From Methylococcales bacterium (GTDB lineage: Bacteria; Pseudomonadota; Gammaproteobacteria; Methylococcales; Methylomonadaceae), in contig JAQTOX010000011.1 of NCBI GenBank assembly GCA_028713055.1, positions 1 to 37,389 of the forward strand: a DNA stretch of 37,389 nucleotides, in the 5' to 3' direction. This document shows positions 19,472 to 29,653 of this stretch, piece after piece (positions within the stretch are counted from its first letter, which is position 1; the number at the start of each line of letters is the position of its first letter). The position numbers and the translations under genes are program-made. The notes beneath the pieces are model-generated. The model was not told the DNA's origin. It worked only from the letters and a program-made list of their open reading frames with translations, and did no database searches.

Positions 19472-19487
19472 TGGCATAGCCGTTGCA
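19472..19487 (+). promoter_or_regulatory. Sigma-54 (-24/-12) promoter of the sMMO operon
   Basis: TGGCATAGCCGTTGCA fits TGGCAYRNNNNTTGCW at every position, with the invariant GG (19473-19474) and GC (19485-19486) separated by 10 bp. Predicted transcription start is near 19498, giving a leader of about 118 nt before mmoX. sMMO operons of other methanotrophs are known to be sigma-54 dependent, and the sigma-54 activator gene mmoR lies in the same cluster. Confidence 0.95.
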
Positions 19488-19615: not shown

Positions 19616-21199
19616 ATGGCTATAAGTTTAGCAACAAAAGCAGCAACCGATTCGTTGGAAATCAATCGTGCGCCGGTCAGTGTTGGCGCACAAGAAGTTC
19701 ATAAATGGTTGCAAAGTTTCACTTGGGATTTTGATAAAAACCGCACCAAATATTCGACCAAATACAAAATGGCGAATGATACCAAAGAGCAATTCAAGCT
19801 AATCGCCAAAGAATATGCGCGTATGGAATCTGTTAAAGATGAACGTCAATTTGGTAGTTTGCAAGACGTTTTAACCCGTGTAGATGCAGCAAATCGTGTT
19901 CATCCGAAATGGAATGAATCCATGAAAGTTATTTCTAACTTTCTGGAAGTGGGCGAATACAACGCGATTGCAGCAACGGGTATGCTATGGGATTCAGCGA
20001 CTGCTCCTGAACAAAAAAATGGTTATTTAGGTCAAGTGTTAGACGAAATTCGTCACACTAATCAATGCGGTTACATCAATTACTACTTCGCTAAACAAGG
20101 TCAAGACGCTGCGGGTCATAATGATGCACGTCGTACTCGCGCTATCGGGCCACTTTGGAAAGGCATGAAGCGCGTATTTTCGGACGGCTTTATTTCAGGT
20201 GACGCGGTTGAATGTTCAATTAACTTACAGTTAGTCGGCGAAGCGTGTTTCACCAATCCGTTAATCGTTGCTGTTACCGAATGGGCTTCTGCAAACGGCG
20301 ACGAAATGACTCCGACGGTTTTCTTGTCGATTGAAACCGATGAATTACGCCACATGGCGAACGGTTATCAAACTGTCGTATCGATTGCAAATGACGAAGC
20401 GGCTTCAAAATATTTGAACACCGATTTAAACAACGCTTTCTGGACACAACAAAAATACTTCACGCCAGTTTTAGGCATGATGTTTGAGTATGGCAGCCAT
20501 TTCAAAGTTGAACCTTGGGTAAAAACTTGGAATCGTTGGGTGTACGAAGATTGGGGCGGTATTTGGATTGGTCGTTTGGGCAAATATGGTGTTGAATCGC
20601 CAGCAAGTTTACGTGACGCGAAAAAAGACGCTTATTGGGCGCATCACGATTTATTCATGATTGCTTACGCATTGTGGCCAACAGGTTTCTTCCGTTTAAC
20701 GCTTCCAACCGCTGAAGAAGCGGAATGGTACGAAGCGAATTATCCTGGTTGGTACGACATGTACGGCAAAGTCTATGAAGAATGGCGTGCGCGTGGTTGT
20801 GAAGATCCAAACAGTGGTTTCTTGCCGTTGCAGTGGTTTATCGAAAACAACCATCCAATTTACATCGACCGCGTATCACAAGTACCTTTCTGCCCTAGCT
20901 ATTCTAAAGGTGCAAGCACTTTGCGTGTTCTTGAGTTTAATGGCAAAAAACATTCGTTCAGCGATCAATGGGGTGAACGTATGTGGTTGTCTGAACCAGA
21001 ACGTTATGAATGCCAAAATATCTTTGAACAGTATGAAGGTCGTGAGTTGTCGGAAGTGATTGCAGAAGGTCATGGCGTGCGTAGTGATGGTTTCACGTTA
21101 ATTGCTCAACCACACACGAGTAAAGACGGCAGACTTTGGACGTTAGATGACATCAAAAAAATTGGCTGTGTTTTCGCCGATCCTTTGAAATCTCTGTAA
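19616..21199 (+). CDS. mmoX: Soluble methane monooxygenase hydroxylase alpha subunit
   Basis: Catalytic subunit of the (alpha-beta-gamma)2 hydroxylase, which inserts one O2 oxygen into methane to give methanol at a carboxylate-bridged diiron centre. The 527-residue length and numbering match Methylococcus capsulatus MmoX. Iron ligands are all present: E114 (FLEVGEYNA), E144 and H147 (VLDEIRHTNQCGY), E209 (LQLVGEACFT), E243 and H246 (IETDELRHMANGY). The active-site gate/pocket residues C151 and T213 are also kept. GAGGAG precedes the ATG. First gene of the sMMO operon, behind a perfect sigma-54 promoter; expression is expected under low copper. 31 bp separate it from mmoY. Nothing suggests loss of function. 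Confidence 0.99.
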   Translation: MAISLATKAATDSLEINRAPVSVGAQEVHKWLQSFTWDFDKNRTKYSTKYKMANDTKEQFKLIAKEYARMESVKDERQFGSLQDVLTRVDAANRVHPKWNESMKVISNFLEVGEYNAIAATGMLWDSATAPEQKNGYLGQVLDEIRHTNQCGYINYYFAKQGQDAAGHNDARRTRAIGPLWKGMKRVFSDGFISGDAVECSINLQLVGEACFTNPLIVAVTEWASANGDEMTPTVFLSIETDELRHMANGYQTVVSIANDEAASKYLNTDLNNAFWTQQKYFTPVLGMMFEYGSHFKVEPWVKTWNRWVYEDWGGIWIGRLGKYGVESPASLRDAKKDAYWAHHDLFMIAYALWPTGFFRLTLPTAEEAEWYEANYPGWYDMYGKVYEEWRARGCEDPNSGFLPLQWFIENNHPIYIDRVSQVPFCPSYSKGASTLRVLEFNGKKHSFSDQWGERMWLSEPERYECQNIFEQYEGRELSEVIAEGHGVRSDGFTLIAQPHTSKDGRLWTLDDIKKIGCVFADPLKSL

Positions 21200-21230
21200 T
21201 CATCATTCAATACTTGTAAAGGATTTTAAT

Positions 21231-22409
21231 ATGTCAATTGTAGTAAGTGGCGGTAAACGTGGTCTTACCGACCCCAAAATTGCAGCGGTTATTTTAGCGG
21301 CTATTCCTGATCAGCCTTTAGAAACTCAACGCAAAATGAATTATTTTATGACTCCGCGCGGTAAGCGAATCAATGAATATGAAACATTGTGTTGTTACAC
21401 ACAACCGACTCCAGATTGGATTCCAGGTGGTTTGGATTGGGGCGATTGGACACAAAAATTTCACGGCGGTCGTCCTTCTTGGAGCAACGAATCAACTGAA
21501 ATGCACAGCAGCGACTGGCATAAACATCGTGATCCAGCATTCCGTTGGCACGCGCTGTATGTCAAAGACAAAGCCGAAGAATGGCGTTATACCGACCGTT
21601 TCTTGAAAGCGTATTCTGCCGATGGTCACGTGCGTTCAATCGATCCAATTTGGCGCGATGAAGTGTTAGGCGATTATTTAGGTGCGTTTGGTTTCAGTGA
21701 ATATGGATTATTCAACTCACATTCATCAGCGACCCGCGATTGTTTGGGTGACACGTTGCGTATGAGTATTGCGATGATTGGCTTGGATAAAGTCGATAAC
21801 GCACAAATGATTCAAGCAGAAAGAACCTTTTTAGCGAAATTAGTGCCTAGTTTTAACGAATCTACCGATGTGCCTAAAAAAGAATGGACGGAGGGTTCAA
21901 TCTACAAAGGTGCGCGTGAAACTGTTGAAGAAATTTGGCAAGGAACGTATGACTGGAACGAAATTTTGTTCTCTGGTCACATGATTTACGACCCATTGTT
22001 CGGTCAGTTTGTACGTAGAGAATTCTTCTTGAGATTGTCAGCGTATTACGGCGACAACTTAACACCGTTCTTTATCAATCAAATGCAGTTGTACCATTCA
22101 CAAACGAAAGGTATCACCAAAGATATGTTCCACACTTGTTTAGCTGTGGATGAAAACTTTGGCGATTACAACGTCAGTTTGATGAACATGTGGAGCGACA
22201 AATGGTTGCCCAGAACGGTCAACGCATTGAAAGATTTCATGGGAATTTTTGCGAAAATTCCAACGATTGCGGGTGTGACGGATAAAGCCGCTGTTGAAGC
22301 TGCGTTGGGTCGTGTTTTTGAAGATTGGAAACGTGATTACGCGGATCCAATCGGCTACAAAGTTGACACAGCGGCTTTAATCAAAACCGTGTTATCTGGT
22401 CTTAAATAA
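21231..22409 (+). CDS. mmoY: Soluble methane monooxygenase hydroxylase beta subunit
   Basis: Structural beta subunit, a ferritin-like helical fold without the iron site, that dimerises the hydroxylase and helps form the canyon where MmoB and MmoC dock. The 392-residue length is close to the family norm (about 389). Recognisable stretches include RGLTDPKIAAVILAAIPDQP, PDWIPGGLDWGDWTQKFHGG, WRYTDRFLKAYSADGHVR and GLFNSHSSATRDCLGDTLR. AAAGGA lies upstream of the ATG. It is only 9 bp from mmoB, consistent with a single transcript and matched subunit synthesis. Confidence 0.98.
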   Translation: MSIVVSGGKRGLTDPKIAAVILAAIPDQPLETQRKMNYFMTPRGKRINEYETLCCYTQPTPDWIPGGLDWGDWTQKFHGGRPSWSNESTEMHSSDWHKHRDPAFRWHALYVKDKAEEWRYTDRFLKAYSADGHVRSIDPIWRDEVLGDYLGAFGFSEYGLFNSHSSATRDCLGDTLRMSIAMIGLDKVDNAQMIQAERTFLAKLVPSFNESTDVPKKEWTEGSIYKGARETVEEIWQGTYDWNEILFSGHMIYDPLFGQFVRREFFLRLSAYYGDNLTPFFINQMQLYHSQTKGITKDMFHTCLAVDENFGDYNVSLMNMWSDKWLPRTVNALKDFMGIFAKIPTIAGVTDKAAVEAALGRVFEDWKRDYADPIGYKVDTAALIKTVLSGLK

Positions 22410-22418
22410 GGAATTCTT

Positions 22419-22838
22419 ATGTCTACAAGTGCAAATTCGTACAACGCAGGAATCATGGCAAAGACTGGGAAAGACTTTGCTGATGAATACTTTGCGGAAG
22501 CAAACCAAGTCGTTCATGAAAGTGACACCGTGGTTTTAGTGTTAAAAAAATCAGATGAACTCAATACCGTTGTTGAAGAAATTCTGTTGGGTTCTCATAA
22601 AGATCAAAACCGCACGTTAGTTGTAGAAGATCGTGCTGGTTTTTGGTGGTTGAAAGCGAATGGCAAAATTGAAATTGATTGCCGTGAAGTCTCTGAATTA
22701 TTAGGGAAAAGTTACAGTGTTTATGATTTGTTGGTGGATGTATCGTCTACCATTGGTCGTGCTTATACACTCGATGAAACTTTTACTATCACATCAGAAT
22801 TGATGGGTCTTGATGTCAAATTACAAGACATCCATTGA
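22419..22838 (+). CDS. mmoB: Soluble methane monooxygenase regulatory protein B
   Basis: Cofactor-free effector that binds the hydroxylase, gates O2 and methane access and shifts the diiron redox potential. The 139-residue protein keeps the family core: GKDFADEYFAEANQVVHESD, TVVLVLKKSDELN, VEDRAGFWWLKANGKIEIDC and VYDLLVDVSSTIGRAYTL. The flexible N-terminal tail needed for activity is present. At the point where M. capsulatus MmoB is clipped (Met12-Gly13, from memory), this protein has Met13-Ala14. AAGGA precedes the start. Between mmoY and mmoZ as in other sMMO operons. Confidence 0.98.
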   Translation: MSTSANSYNAGIMAKTGKDFADEYFAEANQVVHESDTVVLVLKKSDELNTVVEEILLGSHKDQNRTLVVEDRAGFWWLKANGKIEIDCREVSELLGKSYSVYDLLVDVSSTIGRAYTLDETFTITSELMGLDVKLQDIH

Positions 22839-22853
22839 GCATAGGAGATAACA

Positions 22854-23351
22854 ATGGCTAAAATTCACGATAACCCTAATCGTACCGAATGGGTTAAAAA
22901 AATCGCTGGTTTAACAACCTTGTCAGCGGGTCACGCTTTATTAAAAGATTTTCGTGTTAAACACTTAAGTCCATTTAAAACCGATTTCACTTTGGAACTC
23001 GATGGTCAATGGATTGAATGCAAAATCGAAGAAAAAGTAGCGTTGTTAAAACGTGCTGAGTTCGATGATGACAAATTCATGAACAACTGTACTTGTGGCG
23101 CGGATGCTCAAGAGGTTGCTGATAAAGCAGTTGCTGAAATGACGGCTTGCACAGATATGTACAAAGCAGAACGCATTCACATTGATTTCAGATTGGCGTG
23201 CAAACCACCTGTTATGCCTGTCAATGCCTTTTTAGATGCGGATCGTCAGTTAGGCACTAAGTTAATGGAATTGCGTAATACAGATTATTACGCATTACCT
23301 TTAGAAGAGTTGCGTAAAGTGCGTGGCGTAAAAGTTATCACATTGCAATAA
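22854..23351 (+). CDS. mmoZ: Soluble methane monooxygenase hydroxylase gamma subunit
   Basis: Small helical subunit on the outer face of the hydroxylase, stabilising the alpha-beta dimer. The 165-residue length is near the family norm (about 170). Characteristic parts: KIHDNPNRTEWVKKIAGLTT, TLELDGQWIECKIEEKVALL, and YALPLEELRKVRGVKVITLQ at the C-terminus. The ribosome site TAGGAG is strong. It is followed not by mmoD directly but by a 90-nt gap holding a long stem-loop, the largest gap in the structural part of the operon. Confidence 0.97.
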   Translation: MAKIHDNPNRTEWVKKIAGLTTLSAGHALLKDFRVKHLSPFKTDFTLELDGQWIECKIEEKVALLKRAEFDDDKFMNNCTCGADAQEVADKAVAEMTACTDMYKAERIHIDFRLACKPPVMPVNAFLDADRQLGTKLMELRNTDYYALPLEELRKVRGVKVITLQ

Positions 23352-23368
23352 GCGCAAATTGCTGACTT

Positions 23369-23408
23369 AAAGTGCCTGTTGAGTGTGATTGCACTTAACC
23401 GGCACTTT
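23369..23408 (+). promoter_or_regulatory. Long stem-loop between mmoZ and mmoD
   Basis: AAAGTGCCTGTTGAGTG (23369-23385) and CACTTAACCGGCACTTT (23392-23408) pair over 17 positions with one mismatch and one G-T wobble, around a 6-nt loop TGATTG. Only CTTTG follows, so a true T-tract is missing. It could be a partial terminator, an RNase processing site or a 3' stabiliser that sets hydroxylase mRNA above mmoD-mmoC mRNA. Confidence 0.8.
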
Positions 23409-23440
23409 CTTTGACATCTTCAATTGAGAAATAAAACATT

Positions 23441-23692
23441 ATGTTAGAAACCTTAAACGCTTCAGTGGCATATCCACCTATGGCGAGTAATTCGAATTCC
23501 GAATTAACCATACTCTACGATTCTCAACCTTACACAGCGTACACGTAAGATTTGGAATTTATGTGGCGGTGGACGATTTATCAAGATAACAAATTGGTTC
23601 AAGAAGGTTGCTCGTTGTCGTTAGATTCATCAAAACGCGCTGTGCAACACGTTATGGCGTTTTTTAATATGACGGGCAAAATTTTAACCTGA
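23441..23692 (+). pseudogene. mmoD: MmoD with an in-frame TAA at codon 36
   Basis: The 83-codon frame encodes a protein matching MmoD: N-terminal part ...YDSQPYTAYT, TAA (23546-23548), then DLEFMWRWTIYQDNKLVQEG and CSLSLDSSKRAVQHVMAFFN before TGA 23690-23692. The frame is the same on both sides of the TAA, so a single substitution (for example AAA or GAA to TAA) explains it. M. capsulatus MmoD, from memory, has a sense codon (Lys) there in YAAYAKDLDFMWRW. MmoD binds the hydroxylase competitively with MmoB and has been tied to the copper switch. An in-frame ATG at 23561 (MWRW..., behind GGAATTT) could restart translation to give 43 residues carrying most of the conserved core. Nonsense pseudogene, two-part gene, readthrough or base error are all open. 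Confidence 0.85.
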
Positions 23693-23727
23693 GTAACACA
23701 ACAAAAAAGGTAGAACAGGAGTTAAGA

Positions 23728-24765
23728 ATGGCAACCACACATCAAGTAAAAATTATTACCCAAGACGACGAGTCCGTTTCATTTGAATGCCGTTCGGATG
23801 AAGATGTTATCAGCGCAGGATTGCGCCAAGATATTTATTTAATGGCTTCTTGCCGTGAAGGCGGTTGTGCAACATGCAAAGGTTTTTGTGCTGAAGGTGA
23901 TTATGTTTTAGGCAAATTCAGTTCTCAAGCCTTACCTTACGAAGAAGAAGAGGCAGGCGAAGTTTTATTATGTTGTTGTTATCCGACTACGGATATAGAA
24001 GTTGAAGTCCCTTACACCTACGATCGTATTTCATTTTCACCTGAAGGCTTATCTTTCGAAGCAGAAATAGTTGAAATAGCGCAAGTTTCAAGCAATGTGA
24101 TGCGTTTGTTATTACAACGTACTGGCGAGGACAAACAAGTTAAATTTGATTCGGGACAATTTTTTGATTTGGAAATTCCAAACACCACGACAACTCGTTC
24201 TTATTCGCCTGCAAATACTGCGAATAAAAAAGGGGAATTAGAATTTTTAATCCGTATTGTTGATGGCGGAAAGTTTTCAACGTATTTGAAAAGCGACGCA
24301 AAAATTGGACAAAAAATACAGGTTAAAGGTGCATCAGGTATTTTTGGGCTGAAAGAAAATGGGTTTACACCACGTTATTTTGTGGCGGGTGGAACGGGAT
24401 TAGCTCCCGTATTATCAATGGTTCGACAAATGCACGAATGGTCTGAACCCCAAAAATGCGTTATCTATTTTGGTGTGAATACCGAAGAAGAAGTATTTTT
24501 GCTTAACGAATTAGAATCGCTTGCCGCAGAAATGCCCACGCTTGAATTACGCATTTGTGTGTGGAAATACGCCGAAAATTGGCATGGCGAAAAAGGCAGC
24601 GTCGTTGACATTTTGAGACGTGATTTACGTGAAACAGTCGCAAAACCTGATCTTTATTTATGTGGCCCACCAGGAATGGTAGATGCGACATTTGCAGTGT
24701 GTGAAGAGTTCGGTATTCAAAAAGAGCGTATTTATTTAGAAAAATTCTTACCCAGCGGTTCGTAA
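23728..24765 (+). CDS. mmoC: Soluble methane monooxygenase reductase
   Basis: NADH-dependent iron-sulfur flavoprotein that passes electrons to the hydroxylase. The 345 residues hold an N-terminal plant-type [2Fe-2S] ferredoxin domain with ligands C42, C47, C50 (SCREGGCATC) and C82 (LLCCCYP), the same numbering as in M. capsulatus. An FAD domain (RSYSPANT flavin motif) and an NAD domain (GGTGLAPVLSMVRQM; YLCGPPGMVD) follow. AGGAG lies upstream. It closes the conserved mmoXYBZDC block and is 15 bp from the next gene. Confidence 0.98.
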   Translation: MATTHQVKIITQDDESVSFECRSDEDVISAGLRQDIYLMASCREGGCATCKGFCAEGDYVLGKFSSQALPYEEEEAGEVLLCCCYPTTDIEVEVPYTYDRISFSPEGLSFEAEIVEIAQVSSNVMRLLLQRTGEDKQVKFDSGQFFDLEIPNTTTTRSYSPANTANKKGELEFLIRIVDGGKFSTYLKSDAKIGQKIQVKGASGIFGLKENGFTPRYFVAGGTGLAPVLSMVRQMHEWSEPQKCVIYFGVNTEEEVFLLNELESLAAEMPTLELRICVWKYAENWHGEKGSVVDILRRDLRETVAKPDLYLCGPPGMVDATFAVCEEFGIQKERIYLEKFLPSGS

Positions 24766-24780
24766 TTCGCGAGAAATACA

Positions 24781-25098
24781 ATGAAACCCGATGACAAAGA
24801 ATTTCTTAATGACATGATTACACAACTCGATGAAACGCTTAAAAAATTAGTTGTTGAAGAGGAAAAAGTGACCCACAAAATCGGTGTTGAACGTGTTGAA
24901 GAATTAAAAGAGTTTTGGAAACAAGATTTATCTGAAGATGAAGAACGATTTTTCAGAATGACGTTGGATTATTGTGACAAAACGTTGATTAGCATTTGGG
25001 CGCGAACTAAACGATTACGTCATACACGGGCGCAAGCGGGACAAACTTTTATGAAATCGTGTGTTGTCATTGGAAAAAAATCGGATGTATCGCTGTAA
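24781..25098 (+). CDS. Uncharacterised 105-aa protein between mmoC and mmoG
   Basis: Not recognised as a named family. The product is soluble and mostly helical by composition. The N-terminal 60 residues are strongly acidic (DDKEFLNDMITQLDETLKKL, EEEKV, SEDEERFF) and may form a coiled coil. The C-terminal third is basic (RTKRLRHTRAQAG). There are two cysteines (C65, C94) and no signal peptide. It is on the same strand, 15 bp after mmoC and 31 bp before mmoG, so it is almost certainly part of the operon. An orf of unknown function has been described in other sMMO clusters (for example Methylocella orf1); I cannot tell whether this is its homologue. An assembly or activation role is inferred from position only. 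Confidence 0.75.
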   Translation: MKPDDKEFLNDMITQLDETLKKLVVEEEKVTHKIGVERVEELKEFWKQDLSEDEERFFRMTLDYCDKTLISIWARTKRLRHTRAQAGQTFMKSCVVIGKKSDVSL

Positions 25099-25129: not shown

Positions 25130-26815
25130 ATGTCTAAACAAATTATTTATAATCCTGAAGCGCGTTTAAGAATGATGCACGGGATTGATAGTATTGCCCG
25201 CGCGGCAATTGTGACGATGGGAAGTGCTGGACCTGCGGTGATGATTCAACACCGTACCGATGGAATTATGCCCATTTTCACACGTGACGGTGTAACGGTC
25301 GCGCGTTCTATTCATTTTGATGATCGCATTGCAAATTTAGGCGGTCGAATGTTGCGTGATGTGGCGGGGGCGGTGTCTCGACAAGTTGGTGATGGTACAA
25401 CAACAGCCATTGTGTTGGCTCAAAAATTAGCGCAAGAAAGTTTAAAAAGTGTGGTCGCAGGATTTCACCCATTACAATTGAAAAAAGGCTTAGATTTAGC
25501 TCTCGCATTGGTTGAAAAAAAGTTACTCGACGACGCTGTTAAAGACATCACGCCAGATTGGATTGAAAAAATTGCCGCTGTAGCAACCAAGGATGAAAAA
25601 GGCGTCGGAAAATTATTGGCTCAAGCTCTCGACGCATTAGGACTTGCCGGTCAATTAACGTTTCAACTCGGCAATGGACGCGAAGATGAATTAGAAATTG
25701 TTGATGGCATTCATTATGAGCAAGGCTATCTTTCACCCAATTTTGTAACCGATAAAACACGTGCCGAAGCGGTACTTGATAATCCATATATCTTGTTATA
25801 CGACCGTGAAATTCACGATTTAATGGATTTGATTCCGATATTAGAAGAGGTGAAAGCTGAAGGACGTTCGTTGCTAATTATTGCGGATAACGTTGTTGAT
25901 AAAGCCTTGACGGGATTATTGCTCAATCATGTACGTGGTATTTTTAAAGTCGTTGCCGTGAAAGCCCCTGGTTTTGGTGATAAGCGTATCGACCGATTAA
26001 AAGATTTAGCGTTATTAACTGGAGGGCAGGCAATTCTAGATGATTACAGCAGTCCGAAACTGGAACACGTTGAATTAAATTTACTTGGGCAAGCACAGCG
26101 CGTAGTCATTACTGAAACCACTACAACAATTATCGGTGCAAAGGGTGACAAAGTTTTAGCACAAGAACGTATTGAAAATTTACGCGAACAAGCGAATTTG
26201 ATTCTTGCAAAAAAAGCCGGCGAAGGTTCAGCGACGGGTAATCGACATGATTTTGGTGAACTAGAAGAACGCATTGCATTGTTATCGGGAAGAACGGGCA
26301 TTTTCAGTGTCGGTGGTACAACAGATTTTGAAATTAAAGAGCGTATGGTTCGTATCGAAAATGCGTATATGTCTGCTAAAGCAGCACTTGAAGAAGGCGT
26401 TTTAGCGGGCGGTGGTGTGGCGTTATTTAATTGCATCAAAATGTTGAAGAATGTTATTGCTGAAAATGTCGAGCAACAACAAGGTATATCGATTATGAAA
26501 CTTGCTCTTGCCGCGCCGTTGCAAAGTTTAACGCGCAATGCAGGATTAAATCCCGAAGTCGTTATTGCTCGGCTTAATGCCGCCAACGACAATCATTTTA
26601 CTGTTGATACGCAACATCAAATTTATGGCAATTTTTTAGAAATAGGCATTATTGATCCCGTTAAAGTGATGCGTTTAGCGTTACGCAATGCCGTTAGCGT
26701 GGTGGGGACAATGATGACAACCGAAACTATTGTGATGGATGTTCCCGATTTATCGATTATGGATGGTTATTCGCCCGAATGGGCAGCGGCAACTCGTGAA
26801 GATCCGCGTTCTTAA
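25130..26815 (+). CDS. mmoG: MmoG, divergent GroEL-type chaperonin of the sMMO cluster
   Basis: GroEL-like protein needed, with MmoR, for sMMO expression in other methanotrophs, presumably to fold MmoR or the hydroxylase. The 561 residues keep the equatorial-intermediate-apical order: TRDGVTVA (51-58), GDGTTTA (87-93), an apical domain with IPILEEVKAEGRSLLIIADN and VKAPGFGDKR, then LEEGVLAGGGVAL (420-432) and ITTE-like MMTTETIVMDVP. It departs from GroEL where nucleotide is handled: the GPKG loop reads GSAG (31-34) and the catalytic Asp of RVEDAL (E. coli D398) is Asn411 (RIENAY). The Gly-Gly-Met tail is absent. Last gene before a terminator. Confidence 0.95.
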   Translation: MSKQIIYNPEARLRMMHGIDSIARAAIVTMGSAGPAVMIQHRTDGIMPIFTRDGVTVARSIHFDDRIANLGGRMLRDVAGAVSRQVGDGTTTAIVLAQKLAQESLKSVVAGFHPLQLKKGLDLALALVEKKLLDDAVKDITPDWIEKIAAVATKDEKGVGKLLAQALDALGLAGQLTFQLGNGREDELEIVDGIHYEQGYLSPNFVTDKTRAEAVLDNPYILLYDREIHDLMDLIPILEEVKAEGRSLLIIADNVVDKALTGLLLNHVRGIFKVVAVKAPGFGDKRIDRLKDLALLTGGQAILDDYSSPKLEHVELNLLGQAQRVVITETTTTIIGAKGDKVLAQERIENLREQANLILAKKAGEGSATGNRHDFGELEERIALLSGRTGIFSVGGTTDFEIKERMVRIENAYMSAKAALEEGVLAGGGVALFNCIKMLKNVIAENVEQQQGISIMKLALAAPLQSLTRNAGLNPEVVIARLNAANDNHFTVDTQHQIYGNFLEIGIIDPVKVMRLALRNAVSVVGTMMTTETIVMDVPDLSIMDGYSPEWAAATREDPRS

Positions 26816-27056: not shown

Positions 27057-28817
27057 ATGGATTTTCAAATTTCAAACAGAGTTAAATTAAGCCACGAAAC
27101 CTTATTGCTTCGGCATACCGTTGAATTTGAAGTAGATCGTCCTATTCAGGCATGGCAATGGATGAATCAAACTCGAACTGTTCCCGAACATGGGGATTGG
27201 GTTCGACCTGAAGTGAGTGAAGCATGGCAACGCTGTCTTGAAGACTATCAGTTACCGTTAGGTAATTATGCTAACTGGGATAACTACCCCATTATCACGC
27301 ATACAACAAATAGCACGCCGCAATCGCATCGTATTGAAAATCTAGTCAAACAATTACATCAAAATTTCCATATTTTCTTGAAAGAATCCGATGTCATGAT
27401 GATATTGACTGGTGCAAACGGGGATTTGTTGTATTTGATGGGTGAAAAACCATTGTCGAGTGCATTTATGTCCAGAATGCAATCTAAGGGTGCGAATTGG
27501 CTAGAATCTGCATTAGGGAATAACGGTATTGGAACGGCTATTGAGTTAAAAAAACCGATTGCTTTTCAAGGTATGGAACATTTTTTAAATGTGTTGCATC
27601 CGTTTACGACTGTTGGCTACCCTTTGTTTGATAATGCTGGCGAATTGATTGCCGTAATTGGTTTAATCAGCGATAAACAAGAAAACATGAATTCATTGTT
27701 TGCTTTTTTACATCTGATTTGTGTTTTGGTGAATACAGATTTTCCGTTAGCAAAAAATACGTTGGCACAACAGTGCGTTTTAAAACAAATTCCGCTTAAA
27801 CCCGCGAAAAAGTCACTTGAATTCGTTAATGGCGAAGTCTCTGAAACGTTAGCATTGCTCGTCAAAAAAGCGGTGAAATTACAACAATACAAAGTACCTA
27901 TTTTAATTACGGGTGAATCTGGTGTCGGCAAAGATCATTTTGTTCGCCTAATTCGGAATGCAGGACCTCGAAAAAATGCGCCATTGATAGCAATTAACTG
28001 TGCATCAATTCCACATGATTTGATTGAAAGTGAATTATTCGGTTATGAATCGGGGAGTTTTACAGGCGCACGGAGTACCGGTAAGCCAGGAAAATTTATG
28101 CTTGCCGATAAAGGGATTTTATTTCTTGATGAAATTGGTGACATGAGTTTTGATCTGCAATCTACGTTATTGCGTGTACTGGAAACGTCTGAAATTACGC
28201 CTGTTGGCGGTACAAAATCGATTCTGGTAGATGTTCAAGTGGTCGCCGCAACTAACGTGCATTTATTAACAGCGGTTGAACAGGGGCGTTTTCGTCGTGA
28301 TTTGTACTATCGATTGAATGGCTGTACTTGTCATTTACTGCCATTGCGTGAACGCCCCGACAAAAAATCTATTATTCAGCACATTTTACAACGTGAATTA
28401 AACGCCATCGCGCCTGACGGTGAAATTCAGATTTGTTCAGAAGTTCACCGTTTAATGGAACAGCATCCGTGGCCTGGCAATATTCGCCAAGTAATTAACG
28501 TGATTCGAGCGACACTTTATACCGCAAGCAGTTCTATTATTGACGTACACGATTTGCCTGTTGACTTTTTTACAGAACTTGAACAATTCAGTTTGAGCAA
28601 TGTGGATTCGACTAACTCAATTTTGGTTGCGCCATCGTCAATGGTTAATTCACCCGTCATGAGTCTAACCGATTGGGAGTTACACGGCATCAAAATGGCT
28701 CTCAAAGATTGCGATGGAAACATCTCGATGGCAGCAAAAAATTTGGGTATCACCCGCACGACGTTATACAAAAAAATAGATCGTTTTGGGTTAAACAAAA
28801 ACGGTGCAAGTCTTTAA
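27057..28817 (+). CDS. mmoR: MmoR, sigma-54-dependent activator of sMMO genes
   Basis: AcoR-like enhancer-binding protein. The 586 residues comprise an N-terminal GAF-type sensor region (about 95-225, with LESALGNNGIGTAIELKKP and FTTVGYPLFDNAGELIAVIG), an AAA+ domain and a C-terminal Fis-type helix-turn-helix (MAAKNLGITRTTLYKKIDRF). In the AAA+ domain are Walker A GESGVGKD (286-293), the sigma-54 contact loop GSFTGA (333-338; consensus GAFTGA) and Walker B FLDEIGD (356-362). It is separated from mmoG by a terminator and own promoter. The adjacent sensor genes mmoQ and mmoS of M. capsulatus are not present here. Its stop overlaps the convergent hslO by 4 bp. Confidence 0.95.
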   Translation: MDFQISNRVKLSHETLLLRHTVEFEVDRPIQAWQWMNQTRTVPEHGDWVRPEVSEAWQRCLEDYQLPLGNYANWDNYPIITHTTNSTPQSHRIENLVKQLHQNFHIFLKESDVMMILTGANGDLLYLMGEKPLSSAFMSRMQSKGANWLESALGNNGIGTAIELKKPIAFQGMEHFLNVLHPFTTVGYPLFDNAGELIAVIGLISDKQENMNSLFAFLHLICVLVNTDFPLAKNTLAQQCVLKQIPLKPAKKSLEFVNGEVSETLALLVKKAVKLQQYKVPILITGESGVGKDHFVRLIRNAGPRKNAPLIAINCASIPHDLIESELFGYESGSFTGARSTGKPGKFMLADKGILFLDEIGDMSFDLQSTLLRVLETSEITPVGGTKSILVDVQVVAATNVHLLTAVEQGRFRRDLYYRLNGCTCHLLPLRERPDKKSIIQHILQRELNAIAPDGEIQICSEVHRLMEQHPWPGNIRQVINVIRATLYTASSSIIDVHDLPVDFFTELEQFSLSNVDSTNSILVAPSSMVNSPVMSLTDWELHGIKMALKDCDGNISMAAKNLGITRTTLYKKIDRFGLNKNGASL

Positions 28818-29653
28818 TTCAGAGTTAGTAATTTTTCCACGTCAGCGTCATAAAAACGATAGGTCTCACCGCAAAATTCACAAGTCACTTCAATAATTTC
28901 TTGTTCGTTCAAAATAGCACGTAATTCTTCTTCACCCATCGCGTTTAAAGTTTTTTCAATACGTTCACGGGAACAAGCACATTCAAACGCCACATCTTCC
29001 GCATCAAAAAGTCGAATATCTTCTTCGTTAAACAAGCGATGCAACAATTCGTGACAATCCAATTCAAACATTTCTTTTGCTGTCACGGTGCTGGCTAAAA
29101 TTTCAATCGTTTCCCAATCATTCGGTTGACCTTCTTGTGATGGCAACTCTTGCAACAACAAACCAGCGGCGTGATTATCATCAGCAAACAGCCACAAACG
29201 TGTTTTCAATTGTTCTGATTGCTCAAAATACATTTGCAAGGCAGCGGCTAAGTTTTCGCCTTGTAATGGCACAATGCCTTGATACGGTTTGCCATTTCCC
29301 GCTTCAATCGTTAGCACTAAACGCCCTTCGCCAAATAATTCTGTGAGCGAATCGCCAACCATTGGGGAATGGCATTTCACTACACCACGAATTTTACGTT
29401 GATTCGTAGCCTGTGCGACAAGCGTAGTAATTGCACCATTACTTTGCGCTTGCATAATCATTGCACCGTCGAATTTCACCGTTGTCGATAACATCGACAC
29501 GCAAGCTAATGCTTGTCCCAGTTGATGCACAGCGATTTCAGGTTGTTGTTGATGCTGTTTTGCGGCTTGCCAACTATCAGTTAGCTTTACCCACACACCG
29601 CGAATTCCATGCTGTTCAAATAAAAAACGTCGTAAACAATCGTGTTCTGGCAT
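28814..29653 (-). CDS. hslO: Redox-regulated holdase Hsp33
   Basis: Cytoplasmic chaperone switched on by oxidative unfolding. The 279-residue product begins HDCLRRFLFEQHGIRGVWVK and contains GAITTLVAQATNQRKIRGVV. The C-terminal zinc switch has the canonical four cysteines: CxC in FECACSRER and CxxC in VTCEFCGETY. The final segment YRFYDADVEKLL is typical. It converges on mmoR with overlapping stop codons and lies upstream of nothing on its own strand within 34 bp of trkH's end, so cotranscription with trkA-trkH is possible. Confidence 0.96.
   Translation of the reverse strand: MPEHDCLRRFLFEQHGIRGVWVKLTDSWQAAKQHQQQPEIAVHQLGQALACVSMLSTTVKFDGAMIMQAQSNGAITTLVAQATNQRKIRGVVKCHSPMVGDSLTELFGEGRLVLTIEAGNGKPYQGIVPLQGENLAAALQMYFEQSEQLKTRLWLFADDNHAAGLLLQELPSQEGQPNDWETIEILASTVTAKEMFELDCHELLHRLFNEEDIRLFDAEDVAFECACSRERIEKTLNAMGEEELRAILNEQEIIEVTCEFCGETYRFYDADVEKLLTLN

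Follow-up and report, generated by a model that had tools for sequence, protein, structure and literature searches.

MmoG, the chaperonin of the sMMO cluster, carries asparagine at the catalytic aspartate position of GroEL throughout its family

What cycle is left to a GroEL-type chaperonin that has lost an aspartate with which GroEL hydrolyzes ATP? The question is raised by mmoG in a stretch of 37,389 nucleotides from a Methylococcales bacterium (contig JAQTOX010000011.1; the window hereafter means this whole stretch). The gene and its surroundings are as follows.

19472..19487, + strand: sigma-54 promoter-like site TGGCATAGCCGTTGCA, 129 bases 5' of mmoX
19616..25098, + strand: sMMO operon upstream of mmoG, whole span
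19616-21199, + strand: mmoX (tblastn to 75 loci)
21231-22409, + strand: mmoY (NCBIfam MmoY match)
22419-22838, + strand: mmoB (NCBIfam MmoB match)
22854-23351, + strand: mmoZ (NCBIfam MmoZ match)
23728-24765, + strand: mmoC (NCBIfam MmoC match)
24781-25098, + strand: small open reading frame between mmoC and mmoG, in an orf1/MmoE-like position
25130..26815, + strand: mmoG, GroEL-type chaperonin of 561 aa with an ATG start (open reading frame and translation, GroEL family models)
27057..28817, + strand: MmoR-like sigma-54 activator directly 3' of mmoG (Sigma54_activat and HTH_8)

The gene has the position that marks an MmoG locus: it lies in an sMMO cluster 3' of mmoC, with mmoX, mmoY, mmoB, mmoZ and mmoC upstream, and adjoins an mmoR-like gene. 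In most of 75 related loci, mmoG was likewise found near mmoX, whose product in the window has 527 aa (about 60 kDa). The sigma-54-like site differs from TGGCACN5TTGCW at one position, and as such sites are no commoner window-wide than expected by chance, what speaks for it is its position. Just past the sMMO cluster, a gene for the redox chaperone Hsp33 (28814-29653, - strand) is convergent to the MmoR-like gene.

The mmoG product matched Pfam Cpn60_TCP1 in its own genome and scored 500+ bits against chaperonin GroEL models in a profile search. Its score with the GroEL equivalog TIGR02348 (503.8 bits) was below the curated cut-off of 582.1, and broader GroEL subfamily models were passed (506 versus a cut-off of 397). 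Chlamydial GroEL2 and GroEL3 are also divergent GroEL paralogues, and MmoG matched their models weakly; however, at 161 and 104 bits it was far under the cut-off of 600 and is thus not a member of either. The protein is 39% identical to E. coli GroEL and 89% identical to the nearest MmoG, and in the tree it clustered with MmoG proteins, separate from GroEL, with branch support of 100/100. An AlphaFold2 model (mean pLDDT 85.8) had as its best structural matches GroEL and Hsp60, both open and capped (VIA Z 38-46). MmoG is like these group I chaperonins in its full-length fold, nucleotide site and groove for client and GroES, and differs from them in Asn398, Gln197, an inverted or lost D83-K327 pair, an insert of 11 residues, and a tail ending in EWAAATREDPR in place of the GGM tail (GroEL numbering). 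The residues that bear on ATP hydrolysis are located in the window as follows.

26360..26362, + strand: codon AAT for Asn411, which in helix M takes the place of catalytic Asp398 of GroEL (alignment)
25286..25288, + strand: Asp53, equal to GroEL D52, the other aspartate of the catalytic dyad, kept (66/67 MmoG rows have D)
25391..25393, + strand: Asp88, equal to GroEL D87 (Mg/ATP), kept (67/67 MmoG rows)
25220..25231, + strand: G31-S32-A33-G34, replacing the GroEL G32-P33-K34-G35 loop (alignment)

For comparison, an MmoX scan of 84,980 species genomes was confirmed by tblastn, which yielded the 75 related loci, and translated mmoG genes were aligned with E. coli GroEL and with the housekeeping GroELs that these organisms carry. 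Since L053 and L136 are one gene fetched twice, the 68 MmoG rows represent 67 different genes; they come from sMMO loci of the alpha, beta and gamma types and are 39-89% identical to MmoG of the window. Among the loci, mmoG of Skermanella aerolata (L060, 9308-11311; genome G011, contig C231), whose host has an sMMO-like operon, contains an in-frame TAG stop.

We found that RIENAY of MmoG aligns without gaps to RVEDAL of GroEL, inside the pattern K-E-x-x-x-R-[IV]-E-[N/D]-A ... G-G-G, and in the model a helix (399-422) spans Asn411. The Asn at this position, noticed earlier in the window protein, was thereby confirmed, and it extends much further than had been claimed: Asn occurs in all 68 MmoG rows and Asp in all 24 rows of a small, mostly methanotroph set of housekeeping GroELs. 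Neither of the outcomes that would have spoken against the earlier observation was seen, since no Asp stands at the equivalent position and, with Asn in 67 distinct genes, the protein is no lone variant. Among 534 columns, 44 were invariant in MmoG, 190 in GroEL and about 30-31 in both, including column 398, which was the sole column fixed to different residues in the two groups. Both Asn codons are used in the MmoG rows (AAT in 48, AAC in 20); synonymous change thus goes on at this codon, and what is conserved is the amino acid. Between mmoG of the window and its nearest relatives dN/dS was 0.04-0.07 (about 0.05), so the loss of Asp398 is maintained and is not decay. The window gene is a typical and sound representative of a family with Asn fixed. 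Sequencing error as the source of Asn411 is ruled out by the 68/68 rows, and restoration of Asp by deamidation was set aside, because the next residue is Ala and Asn followed by Ala deamidates slowly. No prior report of Asn at 398 in MmoG was found in the open literature, to which the search was confined, and priority for the observation is uncertain.

With regard to the rest of the nucleotide site, MmoG keeps the ATP and Mg residues T30, G32, D52, G53, D87, G88, T89-T91, G414 and D495. The retention of D53, D88 and the GGG loop, also part of the original observation, was borne out by the alignment. The nucleotide and Mg site of an ATPase-competent GroEL (D52, D87, T89-T91, GGG, D495) is therefore present, and it is the catalytic Asp398 that is missing. 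A single metagenome-assembled MmoG (L066, 10948-12663; UBA662) has lost both aspartates of the dyad (D52N and D398N) and is otherwise intact. The groove for GroES and client is still hydrophobic (L237, L259, V263L, V264L, F204), and the intra-ring interface in the 38-41 and 519-523 region differs from that of GroEL in most MmoG (D41Q, M520V, T522M). The altered GPKG loop, to which importance had also been attached, held up in part: Lys34 is never Lys in any MmoG row, but GSAG and similar forms are found mostly in Methylococcales, and Pro33 is kept in alpha- and beta-type MmoG (GPRG in most alpha types, GPAG in beta types). Judged by the alignment, the GPKG change is a lineage-dependent and weaker marker than first supposed, and would add little to a slow-ATPase reading.

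Several further changes that bear on the same cycle had been omitted from the first reading of the protein, namely R197Q, the D83/K327 inversion, an insert and a new C-terminal tail.

25721..25723, + strand: Gln198, equal to GroEL R197, which pairs with E386 in an allosteric latch (65/68 MmoG have Q; 24/24 GroEL have R)
25379..25381, + strand: Arg84, equal to GroEL D83 (R/K in 65/67 MmoG rows)
26114-26116, + strand: Glu329, equal to GroEL K327; with Arg84, the equatorial-apical salt bridge with reversed polarity
26207..26230, + strand: approximate site of the 11-residue MmoG insert, in the loop that joins helices K and L (residues 360-367 of the model)
26765..26809, + strand: tail GYSPEWAAATREDPR, replacing the GroEL GGM tail (alignment)

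In GroEL, R197-E386 is an apical-intermediate latch broken by ATP, and the D83-K327 salt bridge holds the protein closed (PMC3326522). The latter pair is charge-reversed (R/K with E/D) in 42 MmoG rows and Arg-Ala in 22. GroEL columns 345-375, which comprise 31 residues in GroEL, hold 42 in 64/68 MmoG and 40 in the other four; thus, MmoG has 9-11 additional residues here, compared with at most one in GroELs and in those chaperonins of other soluble di-iron monooxygenases that retain Asp. With regard to the contact between rings, the four positions whose mutation gives the single-ring variant SR1 (R452, E461, S463, V464; PMC3813556) have drifted in nearly all MmoG, from RESV to QNEA, QNET and others, with R452 still Arg in 25/68. 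Compared with random sets of four GroEL-conserved positions, this drift had p of about 0.025 in a permutation test, which is weak and was set up post hoc, as was the choice of positions. Another inter-ring site (K105, A109, G110) is kept, and the sequence signals from inter-ring positions thus appear mixed.

The C-terminal tail of MmoG in the window reads GYSPEWAAATREDPRS. In every complete MmoG the GGM tail has given way to one with a near-invariant end, (E)WAAATREDPR, that varies little; its core A-A-x-T-R-E-[DN]-P-R recurs in almost every complete MmoG, whatever the lineage. The tail has low pLDDT in the AlphaFold2 model (46-59), as would be expected for a conserved but flexible peptide, and (E)WAAATREDPR is a candidate peptide for recognition of a client or partner. 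A resemblance to EWRARGCEDP of MmoX was not significant (8/300 shuffles were equally good, and seven proteins were tried), and, within the sensitivity of the search, the own genome had no further copy of the tail. Group-5-type chaperonins of other soluble di-iron monooxygenase (SDIMO) operons (L137-L141, L148, L123, L124) share a tail of their own, DPTAGPALGGGxExLGR or, more loosely, DPTAGPA..GGG..E..GR. As this tail is conserved and distinct from that of MmoG, each chaperonin clade seems to own a tail.

These other SDIMO chaperonins allow one to ask whether loss of Asp398 comes with the type of client. They were taken from plasmids and genomes of the sample, which contained no BmoG or actinobacterial MimG proper, and their group numbers are inferred from gene content and gene order. 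Group 5 and 6 chaperonins (PrmG/MimG/SmoABCD-linked GroEL) resemble MmoG in that their genes adjoin a soluble di-iron monooxygenase, and they have been reported to be necessary for monooxygenase activity (PMC11057499); unlike MmoG, they keep Asp398, lack the insert and have other tails. Asp398 was kept in the group 5 type (operons without a gamma subunit, in the order alpha-reductase-beta-coupling), in the group 6 type (SmoABCD/PrmABCD type; Rhodococcus, Mycobacterium) and in chaperonins of actinobacterial group-3-type operons (Rhodococcus WAY2, ZPP). Slow hydrolysis is therefore no general need of SDIMO folding. Among the proteins sampled, absence of Asp398 was confined to MmoG and the two relatives closest to that clade, L125 (Asn) and L122 (Lys), besides a degenerate chaperonin, L126, with Ala. 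L125 lies in an Acidiphilium-like genome, and the alpha subunit encoded in its operon shares 62% identity with MmoX of the window; a search for the L125 chaperonin in 289 alphaproteobacterial genomes at E 1e-100 gave no match anywhere and was uninformative at that threshold. L122 (6754-8502, - strand) is from the second gamma-bearing SDIMO operon of Methylocella tundrae (66%), and its chaperonin, with Lys at the catalytic position, has a shortened tail, SPEMAAATREVM. Both relatives grouped with MmoG in the tree (support 100/100), and three residue changes at 398 are needed overall, although long branches make the exact places of L122, L125 and L126 unsure.

As for the co-chaperonin, groES was not found in the window, and it is absent beside mmoG in most sMMO loci, a groES sequence of the housekeeping kind being nearby in three beta-type loci (L042, L043, L070). 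A groES search of the own-genome assembly was also empty, probably because of an assembly gap or contig break, as groEL is also broken at contig ends. Housekeeping GroEL occurs in the same genomes as mmoG. A second housekeeping-type groEL of the own genome (contig C150, L081) has a DNA cytosine methylase gene, and not groES, directly upstream.

What the loss of the carboxylate may do can be judged from GroEL D398A: its ATPase falls to about 2-3%, but it binds ATP normally and forms stable GroES-capped (football) complexes in which protein still folds (PMC3813556, PMC3326522, PMC5855711). The premise that a change at D398 cuts turnover yet allows ATP binding and GroES capture thus agrees with the literature on this mutant; D398N was not found in the open literature. 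D398A and SR1-D398A have in common with MmoG that the catalytic carboxylate is lost and the rest of the ATP site kept, whereas MmoG has Asn rather than Ala, naturally and fixed in a family. In Hsp60, the equivalents of D52 and D398 are treated as a proton-sharing catalytic dyad, and calculations gave low barriers with a single deprotonated aspartate as base (PMC12557358). Mutants in mmoG lose sMMO (PMC7994243), and MmoR is described, in a citation of Scanlan 2009, as requiring MmoG for binding the mmo promoter (PMC5874634). When MMOH is produced in E. coli, the GroES/EL of that species can substitute in part, and MMOH assembles with its help (PMC9324122). Since this GroEL has Asp398, MMOH folding does not strictly depend on a slow cage.

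By analogy with D398A, slow or near single-turnover ATP hydrolysis with preserved ATP binding and GroES capture is a well-grounded prediction for MmoG. We consider it probable that MmoG is a GroEL-derived chaperonin dedicated to sMMO, with loss of Asp398 fixed, that binds ATP and ordinary GroES and hydrolyzes slowly. Upon ATP binding it would close with the cell's ordinary GroES, which may be borrowed, around a client that could be the MMOH hydroxylase subunits, the regulator MmoR or both. Hydrolysis would proceed via the remaining Asp52 at a rate far below that of GroEL, and this slow timer would produce a long-lived cage, close to one fill per round. The scheme assumes that Asn398 behaves like Ala; Asn has the shape of a protonated Asp, and D52 would then be the sole base that remains. 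Against it, Asn is not Ala and can hold a water molecule.

In an opposite and, in our view, unlikely explanation, MmoG cycles normally and hydrolyzes ATP at a useful rate by a different active-site solution: Asp52 alone would act as the base, Asn398 would position water, and R197Q together with the D83/K327 change would retune the cycle. Conservation of Asp52 in 66/67 rows, the low barriers calculated for one aspartate acting alone in Hsp60 (PMC12557358), strong purifying selection and a complete set of ATP-site residues are all consistent with it; but GroEL D398A also keeps Asp52 and has only about 2% activity, and the L066 protein, otherwise intact, has lost even Asp52. At the other extreme, it is very improbable that a paralogue with no further need of ATP hydrolysis has undergone neutral decay. 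Loss of Asp398 to Lys in L122, a near relative, and to Ala in L126, which is degenerate, speaks for decay, but it predicts varied residues, whereas one residue is fixed in 67 genes of three proteobacterial lineages with an intact ATP site; we reject it on the invariance of Asn398 and the dN/dS of 0.04-0.07.

The remaining explanations concern the architecture of the cage. MmoG might be a natural analogue of SR1-D398A, with single or weakly paired rings, one GroES closure, a large client and an expanded chamber. This is a special case of the slow chaperonin and does not exclude it, and we regard it as doubtful. The cavity of SR1-D398A is 80% larger (PMC5934643), MmoX is about 60 kDa, and the four SR1 positions have drifted as a set (p about 0.025); on the other side stand the kept K105, A109 and G110, the 25/68 rows with R452 and the weakness of that test with positions chosen post hoc. 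Quite unlikely, in our estimate, is a subunit that mixes into GroEL rings or an ATP-locked, non-folding scaffold that, for example, holds MmoR in a DNA-binding form. The adjoining MmoR-like gene, the cited need of MmoR for MmoG in promoter binding and the housekeeping GroEL in the same genomes point this way, but the intra-ring interface differs from GroEL in most MmoG (D41Q, M520V, T522M), and both the client groove and the ATP site are conserved as one would expect of a functioning chaperonin. Returning to the slow, dedicated chaperonin, a more specific form of it can be offered only tentatively: a hydrolysis-slow, possibly single-ring cage might hold one di-iron monooxygenase client for long, with the EWAAATREDPR peptide on its floor recognizing that client.

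D398A has long served in the laboratory to freeze the cycle of GroEL. If the slow-chaperonin reading is true, a natural family with the same carboxylate gone would mean that evolution tunes the hydrolysis clock of chaperonins. It would also offer a testable reason for the difficult production of sMMO in E. coli, which is relevant to methane biotechnology: what sMMO may require is a chaperonin whose clock is slow and whose tail is specific to the client, rather than extra GroEL.
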